Both the position numbers and the translations under genes were made by a program. Below, piece after piece: positions 41,202-55,300 of a stretch of DNA of 64,000 nucleotides; position 1 is the first letter of the stretch; each line of letters starts with the position of its first letter. Source of the DNA: Chaetoceros tenuissimus (Eukaryota > Bacillariophyta > Thalassiosirophyceae > Chaetocerotales > Chaetocerotaceae); the NCBI GenBank assembly GCA_021927905.1, contig BLLK01000047.1, positions 2,852,001-2,916,000 of the forward strand, given 5' to 3'. Under the pieces are notes generated by a model that was not told the DNA's origin, ran no database searches, and saw nothing but the letters and a program-made list of their open reading frames with translations.

Positions 41202-42208
41202 ATCTTCAATGTTTTTAATGTGAACGAATATATGGAGTAATTTGAATTAAGTGTGGTAGGGGATATTACAACGAGGATGTGTTTGCTTGGACTGATAAAG
41301 TGATGAGAAAAAGTGAAGGAGAAAATGTGATGAGTGAGTGTGTGATACTAACTGCTGGCTAATTAAACTGCTACGCTGGAAAATATATGACGTCACTAAA
41401 ACAAATAGATTATAATGTTTATCGAGGGCAGATTTTTCCAACAGCTTTGATAGCTCAGTTGGGAGAGCGCAAGACTGAAGATCTTGAGGCCCTGTGTTCG
41501 ATTCACAGTCAAAGCATTTTTGCAGCTGAACGAACTTACATTTTATCTCTTGCTGAACTCACATTTTGTTACTCCTAACTTGCTCGCTTGAGTGATAGAG
41601 CACAAAAAGAACATAATCGGACAAGAGTTCTTGAGTTACCTCAGTAGGTATGATGATTTAAAATAATTTTGCGAGCTCCGACTTTACTCAAGGAGTTAGA
41701 TGCACACATACACATACCTTGTTCATGTCTACAGCAATGTCTTTTTCCATTAAAATGACACTAGATATAGTATTGTCCACCGCATTTTCCATTGCCATGA
41801 TCATGTCCGGTAAAATGGCTGAATTTACTTTTGCTAAAATTCTATCAACAGATAATATGTGCATTCTGCTCTTTTCAATCAACTCATCATTCTAATCTCA
41901 TCTTAGGATAAATATAGACTATAGTTAGTTTATGTGGCAATAGACCTAGCTAAATAAATGAACTATTGTGAACAAACTGTGATGACATCCTCTCTATCTT
42001 TTCTTATGTGTGCAACGTACACCTTCTATTTCTATTTATGGATGTCATTACATAAATCAAATAAGGTAATCTCTCCAAATCAATCAATACAGGATAGTAG
42101 TCAAACCTCATCCTTTCCTGTGACTGTTTCTATCTCACAGGGTCAAGAATCTGCAGAGAAAATACATTTTTGTAATTACCTCACACATCTTTTCGTTCAA
42201 GAATTAAA
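41202..42208. other. Interval with tRNA-Phe and short open frames
   Basis: Around the tRNA-Phe gene there is a minus-strand 58-codon ATG frame (stop at 41688) that contains a GTATGT donor after ...DMNK, and a plus-strand 84-codon frame (41958-42212) whose stop overlaps the next start as ATGA. Neither resembles a known protein. Confidence 0.4.
41444..41516 (+). tRNA. tRNA-Phe (anticodon GAA)
   Basis: 73-nt cloverleaf, intronless. Acceptor GCTTTGA/TCAAAGC, D-arm with box A TAGCTCAGTTGG, anticodon stem CAAGA/TCTTG with loop CTGAAGA, T-arm CTGTG/CACAG with box B GTTCGATTC, discriminator A. No encoded CCA. Confidence 0.97.
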
Positions 42209-45061
42209 ATGAATTCCTCTGATCAACAAGAGGACGATATCACCACCACCCCACAATCTACATCCAATAGTGGAACGTCAACACCAAACATAGGTTCCTT
42301 GCGTCCAGACCCACCTACATTAGCTGATATTGCCAATCAAAAGTCACTTGAAGAAGATGAAGTACTAGCACAAGCTAAAGCAGCAGCGCTCAACGCTGCA
42401 AAGATTGCACAACAGCAAAAAGCTAAAAAGCAATCTTTATTCATGATGAATCTAAACACAAATACTGATAAGGAAGAGCTACCATTGGGTGATGTTCAAC
42501 AGCGAAAATTGATTCAAGAAAAGTTGAAAAGATTTGAAGAACTTCAACAGTCTCTACAGGCAGAACAAGAGGACAATAAACCTCTAGCTGGATTAGTAGA
42601 TGTGAAGCAAAAGCTTGATTCATTCATTCATGAATCACAACAAAAAATTGAAGAAAGTTTGAGTCATTTTGATATTACGAAAAGTGTAGCTGGAAGTCCT
42701 TCCAAAGTGGCTCGAGATGTAGACTCGTCTGAAGCTGATTTGAAACCTAGCTCTACAAATGATACTGATGTACAGCCACAGTTGGGTCAAGATGGACAAA
42801 AGCCTACATTGTCCACTATAGTATACAAAAGGCGCTCGGGATATGGAAAGTATTCAACAAAGAATCCATGGGAACGAAGGAGAATGGATCTTGTCGGCAA
42901 CGCCATTTTTTATTACAAAACATTGGAAGAAAAGAAAGAAATCCAGCAAGTATTGTCCGACTCTAGCCGACCATCGTCTCCTTTTGATGTGAATGATGAT
43001 GGTGATCATAATAATGACAAGCCAAAAAAGAACTTTTGGGATCAAGCAAAAGAAAATATTACCAAGACTACTGAAACATTGACTACATCGCTCATTACTA
43101 GTAATCTTGCAACTCATCCAAATGCACCACGTGGATCTATTGATATAGTGAAAGAAAATGCTATTGTTGCTGCAATCTCATCTGCTCGAGGTGAAATGCA
43201 TTCGACTGCAATGTCGCTCAATATGACCATAGGCATCACTTCTGTGCCTCCTACACCATTTGGTATTAACATTATTGTGAAGAATGAGACAAAGTGGAAA
43301 ATATGTTTTGAGAATCAGAATGATCAAATACAATGGCTTTCTGCATTAACTGAAATTGTTGTTCGAAATAGTGTCGAAAACTACAATGAAGGTTTGAATC
43401 AAAGTCGAAGAGGAATAAGTATCAGTGAGACTCGGACGGGTGACGAGGGTAAAGAAGATGGAGAAGCTGAGGTAAATCATATAGAAAACAACTTCAAAGC
43501 TCCACCAGGCGATAACAATGGAAGCAAATTATGGACACTTGATCAACAATACTTTGCAACGGGATCTATATCTCGGTCAAATCATGAGAATCCATCAACA
43601 TTTGAGGAAGAGAAATCAGACAGTACCGCCAAAATTGCTGTTCCTGATAAAAATTTTCATGGAGAAAGTCCTCTCACTTCTATCCACGATTTCATCAGTA
43701 ATAGAGCCACTTCAGGCCCCGAACAGTCTCTGTCCGGAAAAAATGTTATGATTGCCAATGTACTATTTAACATTGCATTGAAACTAATGCATTCAACTTC
43801 AGGTAGATTAGCATTTCTTTTCTATGCCATAATAGCAAATATATGTTTTTGGTCTCTTGTCGTTGATGATCGGCTGAAAGGAAAAGATGACTCACGAGTA
43901 AGTCTATTTATATCAATTGTTGAAGAATATCTATACCCAGATTTGCTCGAGGAGTCGAGAAAGGCAATACAGAACACAAAAGATGACAATAAAGAAGATA
44001 ACACTGAAGATTCTGATGAGAACACTGGTCTGCAACCATTGAGGGCAGGATACAAACCCATATTAAGTAGTACAACAAAACAAGTGGAGGAAGAATCTGA
44101 TTCTCCAGAGGTAAATGGAGAGTCCTTTGTACGATGGACGACCATGCCATCCCAAGAAGTTCAGGTCCGTGGTCATGGGTACCTAAAATCAAAGCAAAAG
44201 ATTCCGAGCCCTTCTTCGCTTTATGAGGTCATAGGGTGTGATGTCTTGAACTCTGACAAAAGAGTGTCTGATTTTTCAGGAAAAGTCCAATTACCTCAAA
44301 TCGCATTTGATGATGAAGTAGAGAAAACTTGGAATAGCCCTGACGTCTTTATAATCTCCCTTGCAGTTCCTACGAAAGAGCCGTCAATGACAAGGCCAAC
44401 AACAGACGGAGAAGGAGTTAATTTTGTTGTTTCTTTCAAAATGAAACAGGAGACTAGAAACATCCTTCGAAAAATAACTGCTTCAGATTATGACCCAAGT
44501 TCTGTCATAAAGGAGGAAAAACTCGAAGATGTTCAGTGTAGGATTGTAAATTCAGTTAAATTATGGGAAAAGTGGTGCACGGATGCCCCAAATGATGAAA
44601 GCATGCAAGCCCGATTCAAATTTATCCCCAATGTACACAATACAGCTGAGATTGGACTACCTTCTTACATTGCAAAATATTGTGGTAAGCCAGTATTGAT
44701 CAAGAGAGCAAATGTCACCGGATTTCTCTCTTCCAACAAAGAATTAAGTGTCATGGAATTCGGTATTAGTATACACCCATTTCCATACCTTGCTAAGAAG
44801 GCAATGGCATATATGAAGAGCGCTGTATTCCCAAAAGCTATTGTGAGCCTTAGCTATGTCATAGAAGGTCGGTCAGATGAAGAACTTCCAGAGGTTCTCA
44901 TTGGGGACTCCATAAAACTTATCCGTCCAGATCCAGACCTAGGAGTAAACTTCAAACATTTTCTAAATGGGAATGCGAAGTCTAGTATCATTGCTGGTAC
45001 GAATGATGAAGGAGCTGAAATAAGTCTTGAAGAATTGGAGAGTGTCGAAGGAGAGGATTGA
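42209..45061 (+). CDS. PH - EDR2-C (DUF1336) lipid-binding membrane protein
   Basis: Single exon, 950 residues. After an acidic, Gln-rich N-terminus there is a split PH domain (~208-395: KRRSGYGKYSTKNPWERRRM, a long insert, then KWKICFENQNDQIQWLSALT). A single hydrophobic helix LAFLFYAIIANICFWSLVV lies at ~533-551. The C-terminal 280 residues match the plant EDR2 C-terminal domain: VQVRGHGYLKSKQKIPS, DVFIISLAVP, ARFKFIPNVHNTAEIGLPSY, KPVLIKRANVTGFL, MEFGISIHPFPYLAKKAM and SYVIEGRSDEELPEVLIGD. EDR2 proteins bind phosphoinositides and act at endomembranes; here the helix may anchor it. An 84-codon upstream frame overlaps the start as ATGA and might lower translation if transcribed. Confidence 0.88.
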   Translation: MNSSDQQEDDITTTPQSTSNSGTSTPNIGSLRPDPPTLADIANQKSLEEDEVLAQAKAAALNAAKIAQQQKAKKQSLFMMNLNTNTDKEELPLGDVQQRKLIQEKLKRFEELQQSLQAEQEDNKPLAGLVDVKQKLDSFIHESQQKIEESLSHFDITKSVAGSPSKVARDVDSSEADLKPSSTNDTDVQPQLGQDGQKPTLSTIVYKRRSGYGKYSTKNPWERRRMDLVGNAIFYYKTLEEKKEIQQVLSDSSRPSSPFDVNDDGDHNNDKPKKNFWDQAKENITKTTETLTTSLITSNLATHPNAPRGSIDIVKENAIVAAISSARGEMHSTAMSLNMTIGITSVPPTPFGINIIVKNETKWKICFENQNDQIQWLSALTEIVVRNSVENYNEGLNQSRRGISISETRTGDEGKEDGEAEVNHIENNFKAPPGDNNGSKLWTLDQQYFATGSISRSNHENPSTFEEEKSDSTAKIAVPDKNFHGESPLTSIHDFISNRATSGPEQSLSGKNVMIANVLFNIALKLMHSTSGRLAFLFYAIIANICFWSLVVDDRLKGKDDSRVSLFISIVEEYLYPDLLEESRKAIQNTKDDNKEDNTEDSDENTGLQPLRAGYKPILSSTTKQVEEESDSPEVNGESFVRWTTMPSQEVQVRGHGYLKSKQKIPSPSSLYEVIGCDVLNSDKRVSDFSGKVQLPQIAFDDEVEKTWNSPDVFIISLAVPTKEPSMTRPTTDGEGVNFVVSFKMKQETRNILRKITASDYDPSSVIKEEKLEDVQCRIVNSVKLWEKWCTDAPNDESMQARFKFIPNVHNTAEIGLPSYIAKYCGKPVLIKRANVTGFLSSNKELSVMEFGISIHPFPYLAKKAMAYMKSAVFPKAIVSLSYVIEGRSDEELPEVLIGDSIKLIRPDPDLGVNFKHFLNGNAKSSIIAGTNDEGAEISLEELESVEGED

Positions 45062-45126: not shown

Positions 45127-48100
45127 TTAGCATGGAAATTCCTCAAGTTCTGATGTACTCAGACGTTTCAGACTGCTTCTGTGTGAATAAAACGATTCAC
45201 GAACCCCTTCGGAATTGTCTTCTTCTATGCTTTTCATGCTGCCTTTGAGTGAAGGAAATGAGCTGCTACTATCTAAAGCTGAAGTCCTTCTTGCGCGGTC
45301 TAAGGAGTCCATCGCAATGCTATGCCTCAACGACTCTTGGATTTCAGTAAACAGTTTTGATTCTTCCGTATTTTCAGTTTCCCAGGATTGCCCAAGAGAT
45401 GTTGTTTTTGTTTTTGGAACATTCTACAAATATCATGAATCGTAAATGTTGGTAAAAAAATATGGATGAAGAATTCCCTCAAATTAATGAATAAAAACTT
45501 ACCATTACAATTGACTCCCTCACTTTTTGCTTTGTCTGAAAGCTTCGGAAAAGATTTGTATCGAGACTCTGATGTAACATATCTTTATCGCAGGTCATCC
45601 ATTTACTTTTCATCGCTTCCGAGGCAGAGAAGCGTTGCTGAGGATCAACACTTAAAAGACCAACAACAAGCATTCTTGCTTCAGTTGATATCTTGTCCCA
45701 ATAATTATCAGGAAATGAAACTGCACCCGACTTGATTTTACGGAACAAGTCTCTCTTATTTTGTGACATGAAGGGAGGATAACCAGCAAGTAATATGTAC
45801 AGAATAACCCCTAGGCTCCACATGTCAACTTTGGTCCTATAGGGTAGTCCATAAAGTATTTCAGGAGAGACAAATTCTGGAGTGCCACATTGGGTCTTCA
45901 GGTACTCATGAGGAGCTACAATTCTTGCAAAACTAAAACCAGCAAGCTTGATGTTTGTATCGCTGACTTTGTCCATCATAAGAATATTGTCTGGTTTGAG
46001 GTCTCTATGTACTACCCCCTTCAAGTCAAGGTGGTGTAGTACGCCAAATAATATCTTACAAACATTACGTGCTTCATTTTCCGTGTACACCTGTTTTGTT
46101 GCAATTCGATCAAAGAGATTACCTCCAAGGTGGAGGTCATAAATGAGGTAGTATCTATGACTATCTTGTATATAATCGAAGAGGTGAATAATATTCTCAT
46201 GACTGATTGTCTTCAAAACTTGTATTTCACTCATCATGGATTCCTTGTCTTCTGTAGGAATCAAATCCTTGGATAAAATTTTTGCTGCGTATAATTCATT
46301 GTCGTTTCGATTGTAAACCTCTCTAAGTTCAGAGAAAGCACCATATTCAAGCTTATTTATCACCAGTAAAAATGTCAGGATTGTAACCTAAAAATATAAT
46401 GAGTGTGTGTGAAAGACTTACCACTTGACCGTCTCTATAGCTTTCTGTAAAGTTTTCAAATCTTATAGCAATGTCGGCTGGAGATTTACTCCATTTTATA
46501 TTCATTTCTTTGACACCTTTTCCTCCTAAATCATACACATATGTAGATTGTCTGTTAGGTGGGTTTGTCGTATCCATATTATCCTTTGCATCTTTGTCTG
46601 AAACCTCTTGACTCGTTTGAAAATGGACTTTCCTTTTCCTATCCATAGACTCCGATAAATCATAGACTGTGGCGTCCCTCGCTGAGGAATGGCTCGAGGA
46701 ATCACGATCTTTGCCATTTGCATCCCCAGAATTGGAACCATTTATTTCAGATTCACGGAATGTTAGAAGTCCTCTCAGTTTGTTGTAAGTGGTCAAGGGG
46801 TCTTCAGGTCCAAAGCAATCAACCAGGACTGAATGGAAGACCAAACCTCCCACAAGAGAGAACGATATTGTAACTATGAGTAGCTGCGCGAATTTCACAA
46901 AGAAAACAATCTTACAAAAGAGCATAAGAAAGGAGACAGATAAAGTTGTAATTGTTGCGCCTATGATTGGTTCTCCCATAGACAATATCGCTGCCTTCGT
47001 CCGTGTATGTCTATGTAGTCGACCAGGAGAATGACTGTATGAATGACTGCGAGAAAAATTCATGAGAGAAGGTTTGATGAAAATAAAGAAATTCCAATAT
47101 TGGCTTACTTACCTTAGGTGTATTACAAAGTCTGCAGAAAGTCCTACTAAAATTGCAAAACAAATCCACTATGAATTGAAAGAAATGTTAGACCTCGTAA
47201 TGAAACTTCCATAATCCAAGAAAATATTCATTTACCTCAAGAAATCCCAATTCCCAACCTAAAAACATCAATGTCGCTGTCGATGTCGCAAGAATGAAAC
47301 AAATACTAATTGCAGAGGCAAAAGCTAAGAATGGAGATCGAGAAGATAACAATATAATGATTGCGCTGGCAGATATAGCAATGTATAGTGAACTCAAACC
47401 AGTGGATTGCATCATTTGAAATGTATCATTCCACCACCATATTGCTGATGTGTGGAAGAAGTTGAGGTCAGATGGACTTCGAAGTGTCAACTCGTGATTT
47501 TGAAACTCTTCGAACTTTTCCCATTCTAATCTAGTTTCACCTAGAGGCGTGTCAAATTTTACTCTTGTGCCAAGGTTAATGATGATAGTCCTCACTTTGC
47601 CATTCCACGAAAGAACGCTTGAATCTGAAGTACCTTTACTCCATGCAATATAACACTGATGAAACGATTCTTCCTGCATTGGTAGTGATGTCGCATTATC
47701 GCACGATGTAATGTAGTCAATATCCTGAGAACCTGTTGGCAAAAGAGACTGTTCAGAGAGCCAACTGTCAAATGCATTAATACTACACTTGAAATCCTCA
47801 CTAGATTTGTAAACAAAAGGTAGCTCGAATAAGCGGTCACAAAAAGAAACTAAATAATCCTGGGCTTCTGTAGAACTCGGATCAAAACGATTATCAAGTT
47901 CGAGTGTTGACAATGAATCTGGATAATTTCTTTCTCCAGTATCCGCTGGTGTGATACCAAAAATTATTTCAAGATGGGAACCAGTTGTAGCCCTCAAAAT
48001 TGTAGAAGATAAGAGTTTCTCATTATCTATATCACTCAGTATTTGCAACGGATGAGAATCAGGAAGCATCTGCACTGAAGTATTCTTTGGGACACTAATC

Positions 48101-51100
48101 TTCAACGTATATTGCAGTGCAAATCCAAATAAGATTATACAAGATACCAACAAAAGCCACCGTAGTCTATGCATAATGGAGTAGTATCTGTTCAAGATAC
48201 GTTTCAATCTGCTATGTGATGTATCTTCGTGCTTGTTTTTACAAATTGGTTCAAAGCGAAGAAAGCAGTTAGTGCCATCCTTTGTCCACTTGTCGAGTAA
48301 GCACAAGGCAGGAAACACCAGGAAAATATTGAGAACATAATTGAAGACGACCATTAGACCGCAAAAGATGGAAAACGTAAAGATTGGTGCTACGGGTGAG
48401 ACACAGGATGCAAAAAAGGCTATTGACGTTGTAGCTGTTGTGAGGAACATTGCTGATGCGGCTTCAGGAAAAGCCACAGAAGCTACTAACTCAGTTGGAG
48501 AATTTCTTCCTAAACGGTCCTTTACTTCATTGAACCTATCGCATGCGACAAAAAGATCATCAGCACCTAAAGCTGCCGAAATGAAAAACCCTATCAAATT
48601 GAGTAATGAGAAAAACCTGAGCCCAAAGATAAATCTGTAACATGCATACGACAGAGGAATTGCAAGGACAATCTGTATGATACCAACGCAAGCAAGCCAC
48701 AAGGAACGAGTGTGGAGACAGATTACAACAAAAACCATACAACCTGAGCAAGCAGCTAGAATCTAGATGCAGAAGAGTTAGGGGAAATACAGACGAAAAG
48801 AAAAAAATTACCTTGTGATGTATAATACGTACCAAGTCTGGTTTTATTGTTCTATCGATTGCGTATTCTTCAAACTCTGAAAAACGGGTTTCATATGTAA
48901 TTTCAATCTTGTCACCACCGCTACCATAATTAACTTCTTTCTCAAAAAGACTCAATGCATCCGTCGTAGAAGTTGGGTAAACAGAGAGGGAGTACCGAAG
49001 AAAATTACTGCCCTGAACTCCAAAGTCACTATCCAGTAAATGGGGTGAAAATTCAGATGGACATGTAGAGTTCTCCATAGCCATTCCCATGTTTGTCTTT
49101 ATTTCGTTTGCACACTGGGCTAGCATTTCTGTAAACTCATTCTGCACATTCTTATAAGTTTCTGATAAATCTTTGCAATTTCTATTTTCGGTGCCTAAGA
49201 AATTTTGAACCAACCTCACAAGAGAGAGGGGAGGTAAACAGTTGTCGCAATCACAAAAATTGTCATCTTCCAAAACCGACAAAGTAATAGATTCTGCATC
49301 ACATAGTTGATGTATTGACGTTGGTTCCAATAGGGATATTTCTTTTGCCTGGACAAGCCCAATCATGTTGTTCTTTGCATACAAATCAGCTGAAGAATAC
49401 CAATTTTCTGCTTCACATGATATGGATTCAGAAGAGTCTTCCACAATACTGCTTGGCTGATCAGAATTTAAAAAGAATCGACGAGATAATTGTTCTTTAA
49501 GAGGAAAATCTCCTTTGACAACGTTTGAAGTAATATCGTCCCATTTTGTGCCACTTTCATCATTGAAAAGAGTATCTGTATTGTTTCTCAAGATGTCTGC
49601 TTGCATACCTCTTTTAGCTATCTCTGTTCCACGAGATTTCCAACCTTTACAGAAAATAAGAGAAATTTTTTTAATTCAATCAAAGATCTCTGGTACACCC
49701 TCATGTTTTCAAATATATTGAATATCTTACCTTTCTTATTCTCTGTTGCCAGCTCAAAACCACTGAAAAATAGACATAACAATGATATCAACAAAGTGAC
49801 CAAGATAGTTCCAAAAATATAATAGAGTGGATGGTAAACCATGCTTATAAACAGGCTGCGTGAAAATTTGCGAGCAAAATTTCGAGCTTGATCATAATCT
49901 GTGCGATCATCCTGAAATGTATCCCCAACTTGGCTGAGACGCAGGCGACTGTTTTTCCGGGCAAGTGTTCCTTCTTTGACTTCCTTTCGTATCTTCTGTC
50001 TACGCAAGAATTCTTCGTCGAAGGACGCTTGCAATTTCAAGCGTGTGGGACTTTTTCTCGAATGAAAGACGCGTCTCTGATCTTCAAGTCCTTCAATTAT
50101 GCGTCGGTTTGGGCTATCGAGTAAAAGTTGTATTGTCTTTTTCAACCTTAGGCGAACACCCGAGTCATTTCTAATTTCATGTCTAACAAATTGCTCTAAC
50201 TGTGCGATTTTTCTTATGTCTACCTCTGCACTGGATGCACTTTCTAGAGCTTTCAGTGGACAGATTCGTTGAAAGTGAAGCGCAGGAGTCTTCACTCTAG
50301 CCAATTCTATCGCTCGATATGCAAACCGATCTTGATTAGGATCAAGACCAATCGAGACAATACAACCAAATGGTCGATTTGGATAAAGCCGATGTGCCTC
50401 TGCTAGTGCTAAACCAACTGGACAATTGCATGACAAACCTAGGAATGAAAAGAAATAAATTATTGTTGAAAATAGAAAAAACATGGGGTTGGTAGGCACT
50501 TACCTCCATCACATAGAGTATACATTTCGTCATCCACTTTCACCCTTACTCTATCAAATGCTACCGGTGCACCACTGGTACCTTGAATAGCATCACTAAG
50601 TTTCACCGCGCTTGTCCCCTTGAATAGTTCATGTTCTTCACTAGGAATATCATACGTTCGTAAAAGAAATGGCTTTGGTTTCATACCCTTTTTTGCTTCG
50701 TTGTCACTTATCGCAGTACTAACAGCAAATGCCTTCAATCCAATCTCGTTCCGAAGCATAGTATCTTCGCCATACAATTTTTTCGAGAAGGTAGATGGTT
50801 GTTGTGCTGCTTTTGTCGCGCTACCAGTAAACATCAAACGGAATAGATTCAAGTGTGCAAAAGCGTGTTCTCTCGCCATGTCCATGAAATAAGTGCCTTT
50901 AATTATCGCATCATCACTTTTTCGTAATTACAAAAAAGAAGATGAGACATTAGTAGGCATCTATGCTGAAAATTATACTTTGAATATATAACTCACGTTG
51001 TAGAAGTCTGATTCATTGTTAATGCCCCACATCCTCCAACGGAGGTGCCTGCAATCAGGTCAAACTTGGAAATAAAGTCGCTTTGTTCCCCTTCAGACTG

Positions 51101-51504
51101 TTCTTCATATAAAGCTTCAAGTTCCTCGACAATTGAAATCATAGCGTATCCTTTATGATACAAAGACAAAGACAACATTTTTATAAGATTCAGAGACGTG
51201 ATGATTCTTGAGAAAACATTTATTCACGAACCTTTTGCCCCTCCACCATCAATACAAAGTATATTGATAGGTTCCTCTGACTTTTCTAAACCTCCCTTGT
51301 CTTGAGTTTGAAGATTTGTAGACATTCCTTTTTGTATCACATCCTCTGCGTGTTGTTCAATCATCGTCAGTACTTCATCATGAGACTCTCTGCTCCTCAA
51401 GAACTGCTTCAACCAATACCATGTGGATGGTCCTCGTTCACCTTTGGATGTTGGCATTATATAATAACTAATTGAGGCAGATGTATTGGCTTCAGAATTG
51501 AATC
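45127..51504 (-). CDS. Patatin - Patched/Dispatched-like RND transporter - protein kinase fusion (5' end unresolved)
   Basis: Ten exons with consistent phases: 51232-51504, 50997-51150, 50504-50916, 49731-50438, 48833-49644, 47236-48762, 47113-47168, 46422-47046, 45503-46351 and 45127-45423, at least 1,903 residues. The first exon opens at an acceptor, so an upstream exon is missing. Residues ~78-380 are a patatin lipase: CIDGGGAKGYAM, catalytic Ser in AGTSVGGCG, catalytic Asp in LCDGGLSCNCPVGLALAEA. Then come a first membrane helix, a luminal domain starting ENKKGWKSRGTEIAKR, a sterol-sensing-type helix bundle with FISAALGADDLFVACDRF, a second luminal domain and a second bundle with LVGLSADFVIHLSHSY. 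The C-terminus is a CaMK-like kinase: LEYGAFSELREV, YAAKIL, VVHRDLKPDN, GTPEFVSPEIL, DMWSLGVILYILLAG. The DFG position reads GFS. The 49731-50438 and 46422-47046 exons each span a domain border, so the fusion is read directly from open frames. Confidence 0.82.
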
Positions 51505-52338
51505 CTACAATATAAGACCAGGACACTATTTACGAGAGAAAAATGAAAAAGAATATGATAAAAGAACCGTGCTGTTATTCAGAGAGTGTTGAATGTATCT
51601 ATGGATGTGCGATAGAACATATAAAGAAGAAGCGAACACTCGCATGTCTCCAAAAATGAGAAGCGTAAGAAGAAAACTAAAATAAAGAAAGATCATCAGT
51701 CCCGGCTAAGAACAAACTATTTTCCACTGAAATGAATATAAAATTAGCTTATCGCGCACTTTTAATGGCCAATGACGTTCTAAAATGTATACATGAAAAA
51801 TCGAATCAGAATGAACACCTTTCAAATAGAAATAAAAATAGATTTTCTTTCTTTTTCGAAAGTCTGTCTGAAGAGCATGCTGGGTAAAAATATAGAGCCA
51901 TCTGTGGCTAAAAAAAAGCGACAGCGCTAGAGGCAGGCGATGCATACGAGAAAAAAAATCAAATATCGAATGCATACTGTTTTCATTTACCAACAAGACA
52001 TAAGTACGAAACGAATACATAGTGCTTTGATGGCAGTAGTCTTCATTCTTGTAAGCATCTGTGATAACAAATTCTTATTTTTCAGTTTTTCTGCTATTGA
52101 TATTTTCTGTCCCTACCATTATCGTTTTTCACTTGACACTTTCCTTTTTCCAAACAAGGTATTGCTTGAATTATTGGTATATACTCTTCCATGATACTGC
52201 TTTCGAAGTGATTTCGTTGAAAATTTATAGGTACAACATAATTTCAAACTGAACAAAAAACGTCTCATTTTTCATGTTTTATTTTCCAAAAATGGCGTGA
52301 GCTCGAAAACAAACTTTCTAAATAAATAAACCCCACCA
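51505..52338. other. Interval upstream of the fusion gene
   Basis: Must contain the fusion gene's first exon(s) and the promoters of two divergent genes. A minus-strand frame near 51.83-51.96 kb, beginning MHRLPLALSLFFSHRW and ending at a phase-compatible GTGTTC donor, is a weak candidate first exon. Nothing else is recognisable. Confidence 0.35.
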
Positions 52339-55300
52339 ATGAATAATGAAAAACAAGATTTATTTACATTAGAACAAGAAACTTTGTCATTATTGAACAA
52401 GTGTAACTCAAAGGGAAGGAAGTCAAGGAGATTTGACGAGTCTTCGCTGAAGCTGTTGCAAAAGCATCATAGGACTTTGGAAAGAGGTGAGCATCAACAA
52501 CCGACTTATGAGCATCAAAAATATAGAATTGATGAGGCAGAAAAAGCAGCAATCGTGATTCAGTCTTTTTATCGGCGTTATCGCCGTTCGAATCAAAGCT
52601 TCATGGTCAATTCGCTGAAAGAAGCTGCCAAAGAAGGTTGCACGTCAAGGTATTTCAACGAAGATGGAACTGCCACGTTGCACCTTCGAAATTCAATTTC
52701 CAATGTTTTCAAGCAGGATCGATTCGAAAGTATATCAACACTGCTTCTTTATGAAGCAAATACTGCGAATGCAAACAATGCTGGCAATCAAATCACTTCA
52801 AAGTACGAGCCACTGTTTACCCTGAAAGAGAACAAGTTGGTATCCAAGGTAAATCTACGCAAAAAAGGTCAAGTGAGCAAACAAAAGGTAAAGGCATTGC
52901 ATAGAAAGGATAATCTATTACAAGGTGTTGCAATTAAAGATGTCGAGCATGCTGGGTATTTGAAAGCCAAGAAACAGGATTCCAGGGCACATTCTTTCAA
53001 AAACCAACCTACTACACATGAAAAGAGAAACAGCTCAATTTGTTTCATTTGTTGGAGTACGAAAAAAGGCAAGTCGTGTCAATTTGCTCAGAGCGAACAA
53101 AAGGAAATAGATGAAATGAAAGTACCATTTTGTAGCAACTGGGGTATCGAAACTATTCGAAACAAGTATCGGTCTTTATCGGGAAAGATTGATGTTCCTG
53201 TACAATTTTCAAGACTATCGTTTGCAAAGGATAAGCGAAGATTCAGTGCAGTAAAATCAATTCAATCCCATCCTTTACTTCAGTCTCTGACAAATCATGT
53301 TACGAAGTCAAATCAACTTGCAAGACTAAACGCTCATGTAAAACAATGGTTTCGTTCTCTGGTGGAATGGGTCAAGTACCAATGTACGTTGACCGAGATT
53401 GATTTTTTCACGAACAAGGATATCTGTCAACATCTAAGAGCCAAAACTACCAACGATAATAGCAGAATATTAAGACTATGCACCAAAGAATTGCCAAAGG
53501 CCATGCTCTACAATCCTCCAGTAACTGGAAAGAATGGTTGTGATTTAGGTATACTATCGAAAGCTCGAGATTTAGATGTGGATGGCAACATTACAGAGTA
53601 TCTTCGTATTGAACCCATGCCTACACCCAAACCAAAGCGAATATACGAACCAAGACCTTTTGTACAGACTGAATCAAGATCTATCGAGTTGTCAAAAAGT
53701 GTTGATATTTTGGACTCTGGTACCCCAATAGAAACGATAACTGATACCATAGTTCGAACGAAACCAACAGAACATGATGGAACCACTCGGGATGGTAAAA
53801 ATTGGGAGGTCACATTGTCTCAAAAGTTATTGACAGGAATACCTCCACCCTATCACGGTTTTATAATAAGAAACAATATTGTTCGAACACCAACAGAGCC
53901 TCCAAATGAAAATTTTTCCATAAAAGATTCGAAAGTTCCATATCCTCATGTCAATTATGTCAAGAGGCCTTTGGAACATGAACTTAATAACAGAAGAATG
54001 CCTACAATTGCAATCAAGACTGGAATATCTACAGATGAAAAGCATTATTATGGAAAGAATAGACCAGAACAAACAGGAGATGTAGAAGATCGTGGTTTTC
54101 GTACTTCTGAATCAGAAGAGATGGCGCAGTTGGACAGTTCATTCAGCTCCAAGATGTTTGTTCCTTCAGAAAATATTGTAACTCCAAACGAAACAAAAGT
54201 TTTGCCCACAAGAGCAACGAAAGCTGACATAGAGTATCCATTCTTGGAGAGCATTCCAAGACAAAATGAGATCCGGGATTTAGCTCATCTAGTCCAAGAA
54301 AAGAGATTTCCCAATCCTAGCAAAACTCAAATTATAACTGTCAGAACAAAACAGGAACCTGGTAAATTCATGAAAAACTCTGACCCAAACTTGCCACTTG
54401 GAAGATTCACCACCATAGAGACTCGCAGTTGGTCGTTTGTCCAGAAAAAGAGAATTGTGATGTTCACAACTGCAGAAGGTATTCCTTACTGGTATGATAG
54501 AAGAAATGGCAAGACATTCTGGTCCAAGCCTCTCTACGACGAAGAAATGAAGCCAATCATCAAAGGTGGTCTAGTCCTCGGACGTCAAGATAATGCATAT
54601 CATCCTTGTAATCAGAATTTAAAAACATTTGAAGATGTTAGATCCAACTCAAGAAAAGCCCTGTTTTCAATACACGAAGACGAGGAAACTATGAAGGACA
54701 GAATCAGGGCAATGACTTGCTCTCAACCACCGTCTGTTAAAGCTGGTAACTCATCATCAAATGAAATGACAAAAACTCATTCCAAGGCGGCCGAAAGAGA
54801 AAAAGGTGCTCAAATTTTGAGACTAAGTGAACTCATTCAAAAGAGAAAAGAGGAAAGGATCGACAATAGAATAGTTGCAAAAAATACAGTTTCACGAGAT
54901 GGAAGCTTGGAGCAAGAGGTACGTTTGCTTTGTTCAAATTGCATATGAACATCGAACGATAGGTTCTATTTAATAATACTTTGATTTAAGTCGAAAGAAG
55001 CAATTTCTACTACAGACATGTTGACGGTGCCATGTAAGTCCAAAGTCATGGAAGAGCCACTAAATGAGGGCTGTAGTAGCGAAGTAGATGAGATAATCTT
55101 GGACAATAACATCGTGACAACAACAAAGAATCAAGACCCTAACAACAAACCAGTTAATAGCGTCGCAGATGACGGGCAATTTGTAACACAAATTACTTCT
55201 GCACTAAGTGGTGTTCTTGATAGTATTCAAAAGGGAGAGGATATCTTGAAGTTAGGTGTAGGTCTTGGGATGTCTCTTGGAGCTCAAGGGTTACTTCCTA

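Follow-up and report, generated by a model that had tools for sequence, protein, structure and literature searches.

Patatin-like acyl hydrolases are defined by a GGGxKG oxyanion loop, a GxSxG motif and a DG[GA] dyad. Sterol-sensing domains (SSDs) act as sensors in HMG-CoA reductase and SCAP, and to our knowledge it has yet to be settled what Dispatched- and Patched-like proteins carry where Hedgehog signalling is absent; release of Hedgehog is not expected in a diatom. CASK, a MAGUK scaffold not known to have a transporter or lipase part, carries a CaMK-type domain without the DFG aspartate, and TgATPaseP-GC and Plasmodium GC-alpha are not known to contain a lipase. In the excerpts of two papers that present this apicomplexan joining of a P4-ATPase to a guanylate cyclase (PMC6592433, PMC7858053), a lipid-transporter-type part and a signalling enzyme share one polypeptide, which is the nearest published idea to the protein described below, although both the transporter family and the enzyme are different ones. 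Fusion of a transporter to a signalling enzyme is a known kind of arrangement; the composition of lipase, transporter and kinase appears to be new among the papers searched. Here we describe a gene of the diatom Chaetoceros tenuissimus that, as far as can be judged from its sequence, very probably encodes these three parts as one fused protein, and which lies in the window, by which we mean the whole stretch of 64,000 nucleotides analysed (GC 37-40% in 4-kb steps). An earlier reading of this stretch, made from the sequence only, knew of no described protein with the three-part order, and our literature search likewise found no patatin-RND-kinase protein among the matches listed, PMC8530017 and PMC12223298 included, in the portions of those texts that were available.

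The gene occupies 51457-45127 on the minus strand, and its ten exons (Table 1) join in phase into 1,888 codons and a stop, with no internal stop or frameshift and with introns of 65-86 nt that are all GT-AG; the ten exons and consistent phases of the sequence-only reading are thereby confirmed. That reading had opened the frame at 51504 and counted at least 1,903 codons, a figure that gives way, with in-frame corrections, to 1,888 residues and a start most likely at 51457, where the window protein reads MPTSKGERGPSTWYW and a second copy of the gene, treated below, reads MVRKGPSTWYW; two stand-alone patatins of the same genome (L020, L025) also match the window protein from near residue 1, within the stretch encoded by exon 1. 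Exon 5 ends at 48833 with the donor GTACGT, which matches the position of GTATGT in the second copy. Exon 9 was begun at 46351 (LEYGAF) because both the second copy and a stand-alone CaMK relative (C16) place a phase-0 intron immediately before LGxGxF; a TTTTTAG acceptor further upstream, which would add 12 codons (VTILTFLLVINK) and stay in frame, was dropped on these grounds. The donor of intron 1, GTTCGT, is unusual, and the second copy has GTATGT there.

Table 1. Exons of the fusion gene, with their positions in the window and what each encodes
Feature	Position	Strand	Content	Basis
Exon 1	51232..51457	-	aa 1-75: start codon, N-terminal helix (GPSTWYW), onset of the patatin oxyanion loop DGGGAKG	Second-copy comparison
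Exon 2	50997..51150	-	GTSVGG, the patatin nucleophile motif (Ser112)	Pfam, motif check
Exon 3	50504..50916	-	Patatin core; DGG motif (Asp263) begins	Pfam, motif check
Exon 4	49731..50438	-	Patatin end (DGGLSCNCP), conserved linker block aa 404-430, TM1; lipase and transporter joined within the exon	
Exon 5	48833..49644	-	First of the two large extracytoplasmic loops in the RND part (KGWKSRGT...)	
Exon 6	47236..48762	-	TM2-6, the sterol-sensing/Patched domain with GADD (Asp839, Asp840); TM7, second extracytoplasmic loop, TM8-9, start of TM10	
Exon 7	47113..47168	-	SADFVIH, the TM10 motif (Asp1293)	
Exon 8	46422..47046	-	TM11-12, 130-codon linker, first residues of the kinase; transporter and kinase joined within the exon	
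Exon 9	45503..46351	-	CaMK-type kinase core; HRDLKPDN retained, GFS in place of DFG; stretch aligned to the CaMKII regulatory segment	
Exon 10	45127..45423	-	C-terminal tail (KTTSLGQSW...) and stop codon	

A domain search of the joined translation gave Patatin (residues 67-276, 61 bits), Patched SSD (794-931, 41 bits), Sterol-sensing (799-932, 33 bits) and Pkinase (1512-1766, 211 bits), each above its own curated cut-off and in the order patatin, Patched/sterol-sensing, kinase, where these coordinates, like the protein database search reported below, refer to a 1,895-residue model in which exon 5 ends 7 residues later, the extra residues following aa 771; a match to MMPL, at 19.5 bits, fell slightly under the cut-off of that family. 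The single frame with its three domains, which the sequence-only reading had proposed, is thus upheld by the in-phase model and by Pfam as well as by the second copy, and the two exons that it had singled out behave as it described: exon 4 does carry the patatin C-terminus and the first RND helix, with a linker between them, and exon 8 the last RND helices and the beginning of the kinase, with an open linker of 130 codons. On the neighbouring sequence, a convergent 961-aa frame with EDR2_C (PF07059, 135.6 bits) lies at 42176-45061 on the plus strand, its stop codon separated from that of the fusion gene by 65 bases, and upstream of the fusion gene an 872-aa frame (52330-54948, plus strand) has a sub-threshold IQ motif as its sole match.

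The searched genome (41.03 Mb in 68 contigs) contains a second copy of the gene at G000:C34:3155.2-3161.4 kb, on the same contig, about 252 kb beyond the window gene and with identical order and strand. The initial matches at this locus were 73% for the patatin (over the matched stretch), 64% for the RND part and 54% for the kinase; the full model (L028) has ten exons and 1,853 aa, returns the same four Pfam families, and is identical to the window protein at 1,042 of 1,823 aligned residues (57%), with identities of 78% in the patatin, 71-77% in the TM blocks and 53% in the kinase. Eight of the nine introns in each gene agree in position and phase, and exon 8 measures 625 nt in the window gene and 622 nt in the second copy. 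Between the copies, synonymous sites are saturated or nearly so (pS 0.63-0.88 in 13 segments, 0.76 overall), with pN of 0.14 in the patatin and 0.16-0.18 in two TM blocks; the window flanks (35.0-45.1 and 51.5-64.0 kb) gave no match in the 9.9 kb around the second copy, which include only about 1.0 and 2.7 kb of flank, and therefore no recent block copy is seen. By sequence comparison, then, the second copy is an anciently diverged duplicate in which the three-part order has been kept through long divergence, and since that order has outlived the divergence it is the best support for a single gene.

A separate observation concerns intron 6 (window 47152-47260; L028 4637-4745), which is 88% identical between the copies (59/67; z 14.3, against 1.0-4.3 for the 7 other introns compared), 105 of 120 aligned positions agreeing around it; this likeness possibly reflects gene conversion, and retention of the intron would, as judged by eye, give both genes a short tail of similar sequence (LGLWKFH) followed by a stop.

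In its first part the window protein has the oxyanion loop (DGGGAKG, 70-76), GTSVGG (110-115) and DGG (263-265) in common with patatin-like phospholipases such as CBASS CapV and patatin-17, and differs from them in being fused to a transporter. The best sequence match in the PDB is to CapV (E 1.3e-8); membership of that group was rejected, the NCBIfam CBASS score being 62 where the cut-off is 200. Patatins of this type are also found elsewhere in the genome: 8 of the 10 loci inspected match at 31-39% across the whole or a portion of residues 1-419, and the 7 RND matches in the genome all lie away from them.

The transporter part, read earlier as a Patched/Dispatched-like RND protein, is indeed of the RND type and can now be placed closest to Dispatched (7rph, E 1.6e-49), ahead of NPC1L1 (9.4e-11) and Patched (9.7e-8), whose identity for this part was set aside on these values. 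The alignment to Dispatched runs from TM2 to TM12 and takes in the second large loop; DISP1, an RND/SSD-family protein and the best solved relative (7rph), shares the SSD, the TM4 GADD and the TM10 aspartate with the window protein, and is unlike it in having neither a patatin before the transporter nor a CaMK-type kinase after it. Asp839 and Asp840 of TM4 and Asp1293 of TM10 align with residues that are Asp in 7rph and Asn in 7rpj, and the passages seen of PMC8630017 describe an hDisp1 NNN mutant in which the TM4/TM10 aspartates are changed. The count of 12 helices comes from the alignment, given that hydropathy at one threshold yields 11 peaks in the window copy and 10 in the second, with TM5 placed by alignment alone; an AlphaFold model of the RND relative P0001 was too low in confidence for use (mean pLDDT 40.6). 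Of the RND sequences compared that are not part of a fusion, P0001 comes closest (50% with the window copy and 47% with the second). In trees built on realigned sequences the two fused copies form a clade with support of 100 (8 rows) and 95 (11 rows); these trees replaced one made from rows that had been projected onto the window protein and that, with distant NPC1-type sequences included, did not unite the copies and set those sequences beside the window copy. Two further transporter relatives in the genome, C14 and C19, are accompanied by neither a patatin nor a kinase match within the 9.5-9.9 kb around each.

The match to the sterol-sensing domain, together with the known theme of an enzyme joined to an SSD, lends some weight to the reading that the RND part does not transport at all and instead senses a membrane sterol or lipid, switching the attached lipase and kinase on and off. 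We consider this somewhat unlikely, because a pure sensor would not need the transport aspartates, all three of which are retained, or the second large loop, through which the Dispatched match continues from TM2 to TM12.

The kinase is closest to the CaM-dependent kinases (CaMKII/CaMKI, E 9e-61), with which both its core and the start of the CaMKII regulatory segment align, and differs from them in its lost DFG and its tethering to a membrane transporter. It retains Lys1531, the alpha-C glutamate (Glu1549) and the HRD aspartate (Asp1624), but reads AGFS for DFG and LEYGAF for LGxGxF, the first glycine of the loop being lost; the corresponding motifs of the second copy are whole (IDFG, LGSGSF). 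With the DFG aspartate and this glycine gone, the window kinase is, on its motifs, probably a pseudokinase or CASK-like, resembling CASK in having a CaMK-type domain without that aspartate and departing from it in the transporter and lipase to which it is attached. The relay of a signal by kinase catalysis, which had been proposed for this protein, is accordingly not supported for the window copy, while the second copy remains intact in these motifs. A tree of six kinases separates the two fused kinases from the other four with support of 100. The stand-alone relative C16 is 51% identical to the window copy and 54% to the second, and at its locus the kinase match stands alone, no other part being matched in 9.9 kb. 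Near C16 (L039), there are long frames at 188-2737 made repetitive by many near-identical DGEDNDAPKDGEDKDKP units, and upstream of the kinase a minus-strand frame at about 6086 starts MGCGLS, which we take to resemble an acylation signal.

The same substitutions (DFG to GFS, and the glycine loop) raise the question of whether the window copy is a duplicate in decay or with a regulatory role, a partner or near-pseudogene beside a second copy that would be the only fully working enzyme, and it is in keeping with this that the window copy alone among the six kinases compared lacks the DFG aspartate (C59 has DFE). We nevertheless judge such a state of affairs improbable: the 1,888 codons run without stop or frameshift, the residues of the lipase and of transport are kept, and the branch lengths of the two fused kinases are similar (0.48 and 0.45).

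Evidence on whether this is one gene comes also from its two linkers, whose frames, over the two linkers in each of the two copies, stay open in 2, 0, 0 and 8 of 20,000 dinucleotide shuffles. The linker between patatin and TM1 contains, at aa 404-430, a block in which 25 of 27 residues are identical in the second copy, and its region has only 2 matches in the genome at E up to 1, which are the two fused genes themselves. The linker between the RND part and the kinase shows 12% identity between the copies (pN 0.63 against pS 0.75, pN/pS about 0.83), and constraint there accordingly rests on the open frame, the splice phase, the equal length of 130 codons in both genes, and the intron that follows it, which is shared with the stand-alone C16 kinase; by these comparisons it is the less secure of the two joins.

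Outside this genome, the protein database search returned 6 proteins, namely P0001-P0004 (1,052-1,086 aa, with transporter-type Pfam accessions only; P0003 carries the MMETSP label 'type:complete') and two weak NPC1-type matches. The patatin-to-TM1 region of the second copy, compared with long proteins, gave 1 match, a fungal patatin protein that has repeat domains but neither a transporter nor a kinase accession. When both fusion proteins were put to a profile search, the result was mainly kinases, with no Patatin or Patched among the matches listed (120 of 296); scans of viral contigs with two short patterns each found no relative, and a scan of genome contigs had one match, to the kinase part only. 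The absence of the three-part order elsewhere is only suggestive, since the protein searches pick up only candidates that have exact words in common with the query and are 0.55-1.75 times as long, and since the species' own proteins seemingly lie outside the searched set, the C14 transporter not having been returned. The sequence-only reading had named homologues always encoded as separate genes as the finding that would count against it; within the genome the second fused copy speaks for the fusion, and the outside relatives returned, being transporter-only, leave that concern standing. That three (or two) adjacent genes of one strand have been misjoined, with transcripts that begin or end between the domains and open linkers that are untranslated or alternative, would suit the transporter-only character of the strong relatives returned from outside the C. 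tenuissimus genome, the stand-apart relatives of all three parts within it and the poorly conserved RND-kinase linker, but is very improbable in the face of joins that each sit within one exon, linker frames that the shuffles seldom leave open, agreeing splice phases, an ancient second copy that repeats the joins with shared introns, and the near-identical block before TM1.

For the function of the fused protein we favour, at a probability of roughly 0.45, a single membrane protein in which the lipase would cut a lipid, the RND part would export a lipid, and the CaMK-derived domain would exert control. Such a protein, of about 1,888 residues, would have arisen from three complete proteins joined. 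Residues 1 to about 376 would be a patatin-type acyl hydrolase lying in the cytosol, about 465-1385 a Dispatched-like RND lipid transporter with a predicted 12 helices, and about 1500-1790 a CaMK-type kinase that includes its putative regulatory segment. An even number of helices would place both lipase and kinase in the cytosol, where the lipase could cut acyl lipids at the inner leaflet next to the transporter. The ion-driven RND part could take across the membrane either a lipid product or the lipid that it senses. Control in response to calcium/calmodulin, calmodulin binding being putative, would fall to the kinase-derived domain, which would exert it catalytically in the second copy and, in the window copy, chiefly as a pseudokinase with an allosteric or docking role. 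A plausible setting would be diatom stress and oxylipin signalling, with fatty acids or lysolipids released in a regulated way, diatoms under stress being described as releasing oxylipins in the part of PMC5459460 available. A stronger form, which we hold to be rather unlikely as a whole, would see in the gene a self-contained device for the release of a lipid signal, in which the lipid is cut, its product exported by the Dispatched-like ion-driven pump and both steps gated by the Ca2+/calmodulin kinase module, and in which the ancient copies may operate as a pair, the kinase being intact in one and a pseudokinase in the other. That a lipase and a CaMK-type kinase have stayed attached for so long points to an acyl product as cargo or as signal. 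The fusion also provides a system open to experiment in a diatom with a small genome, a member of a group known for the release of fatty-acid-derived signals.
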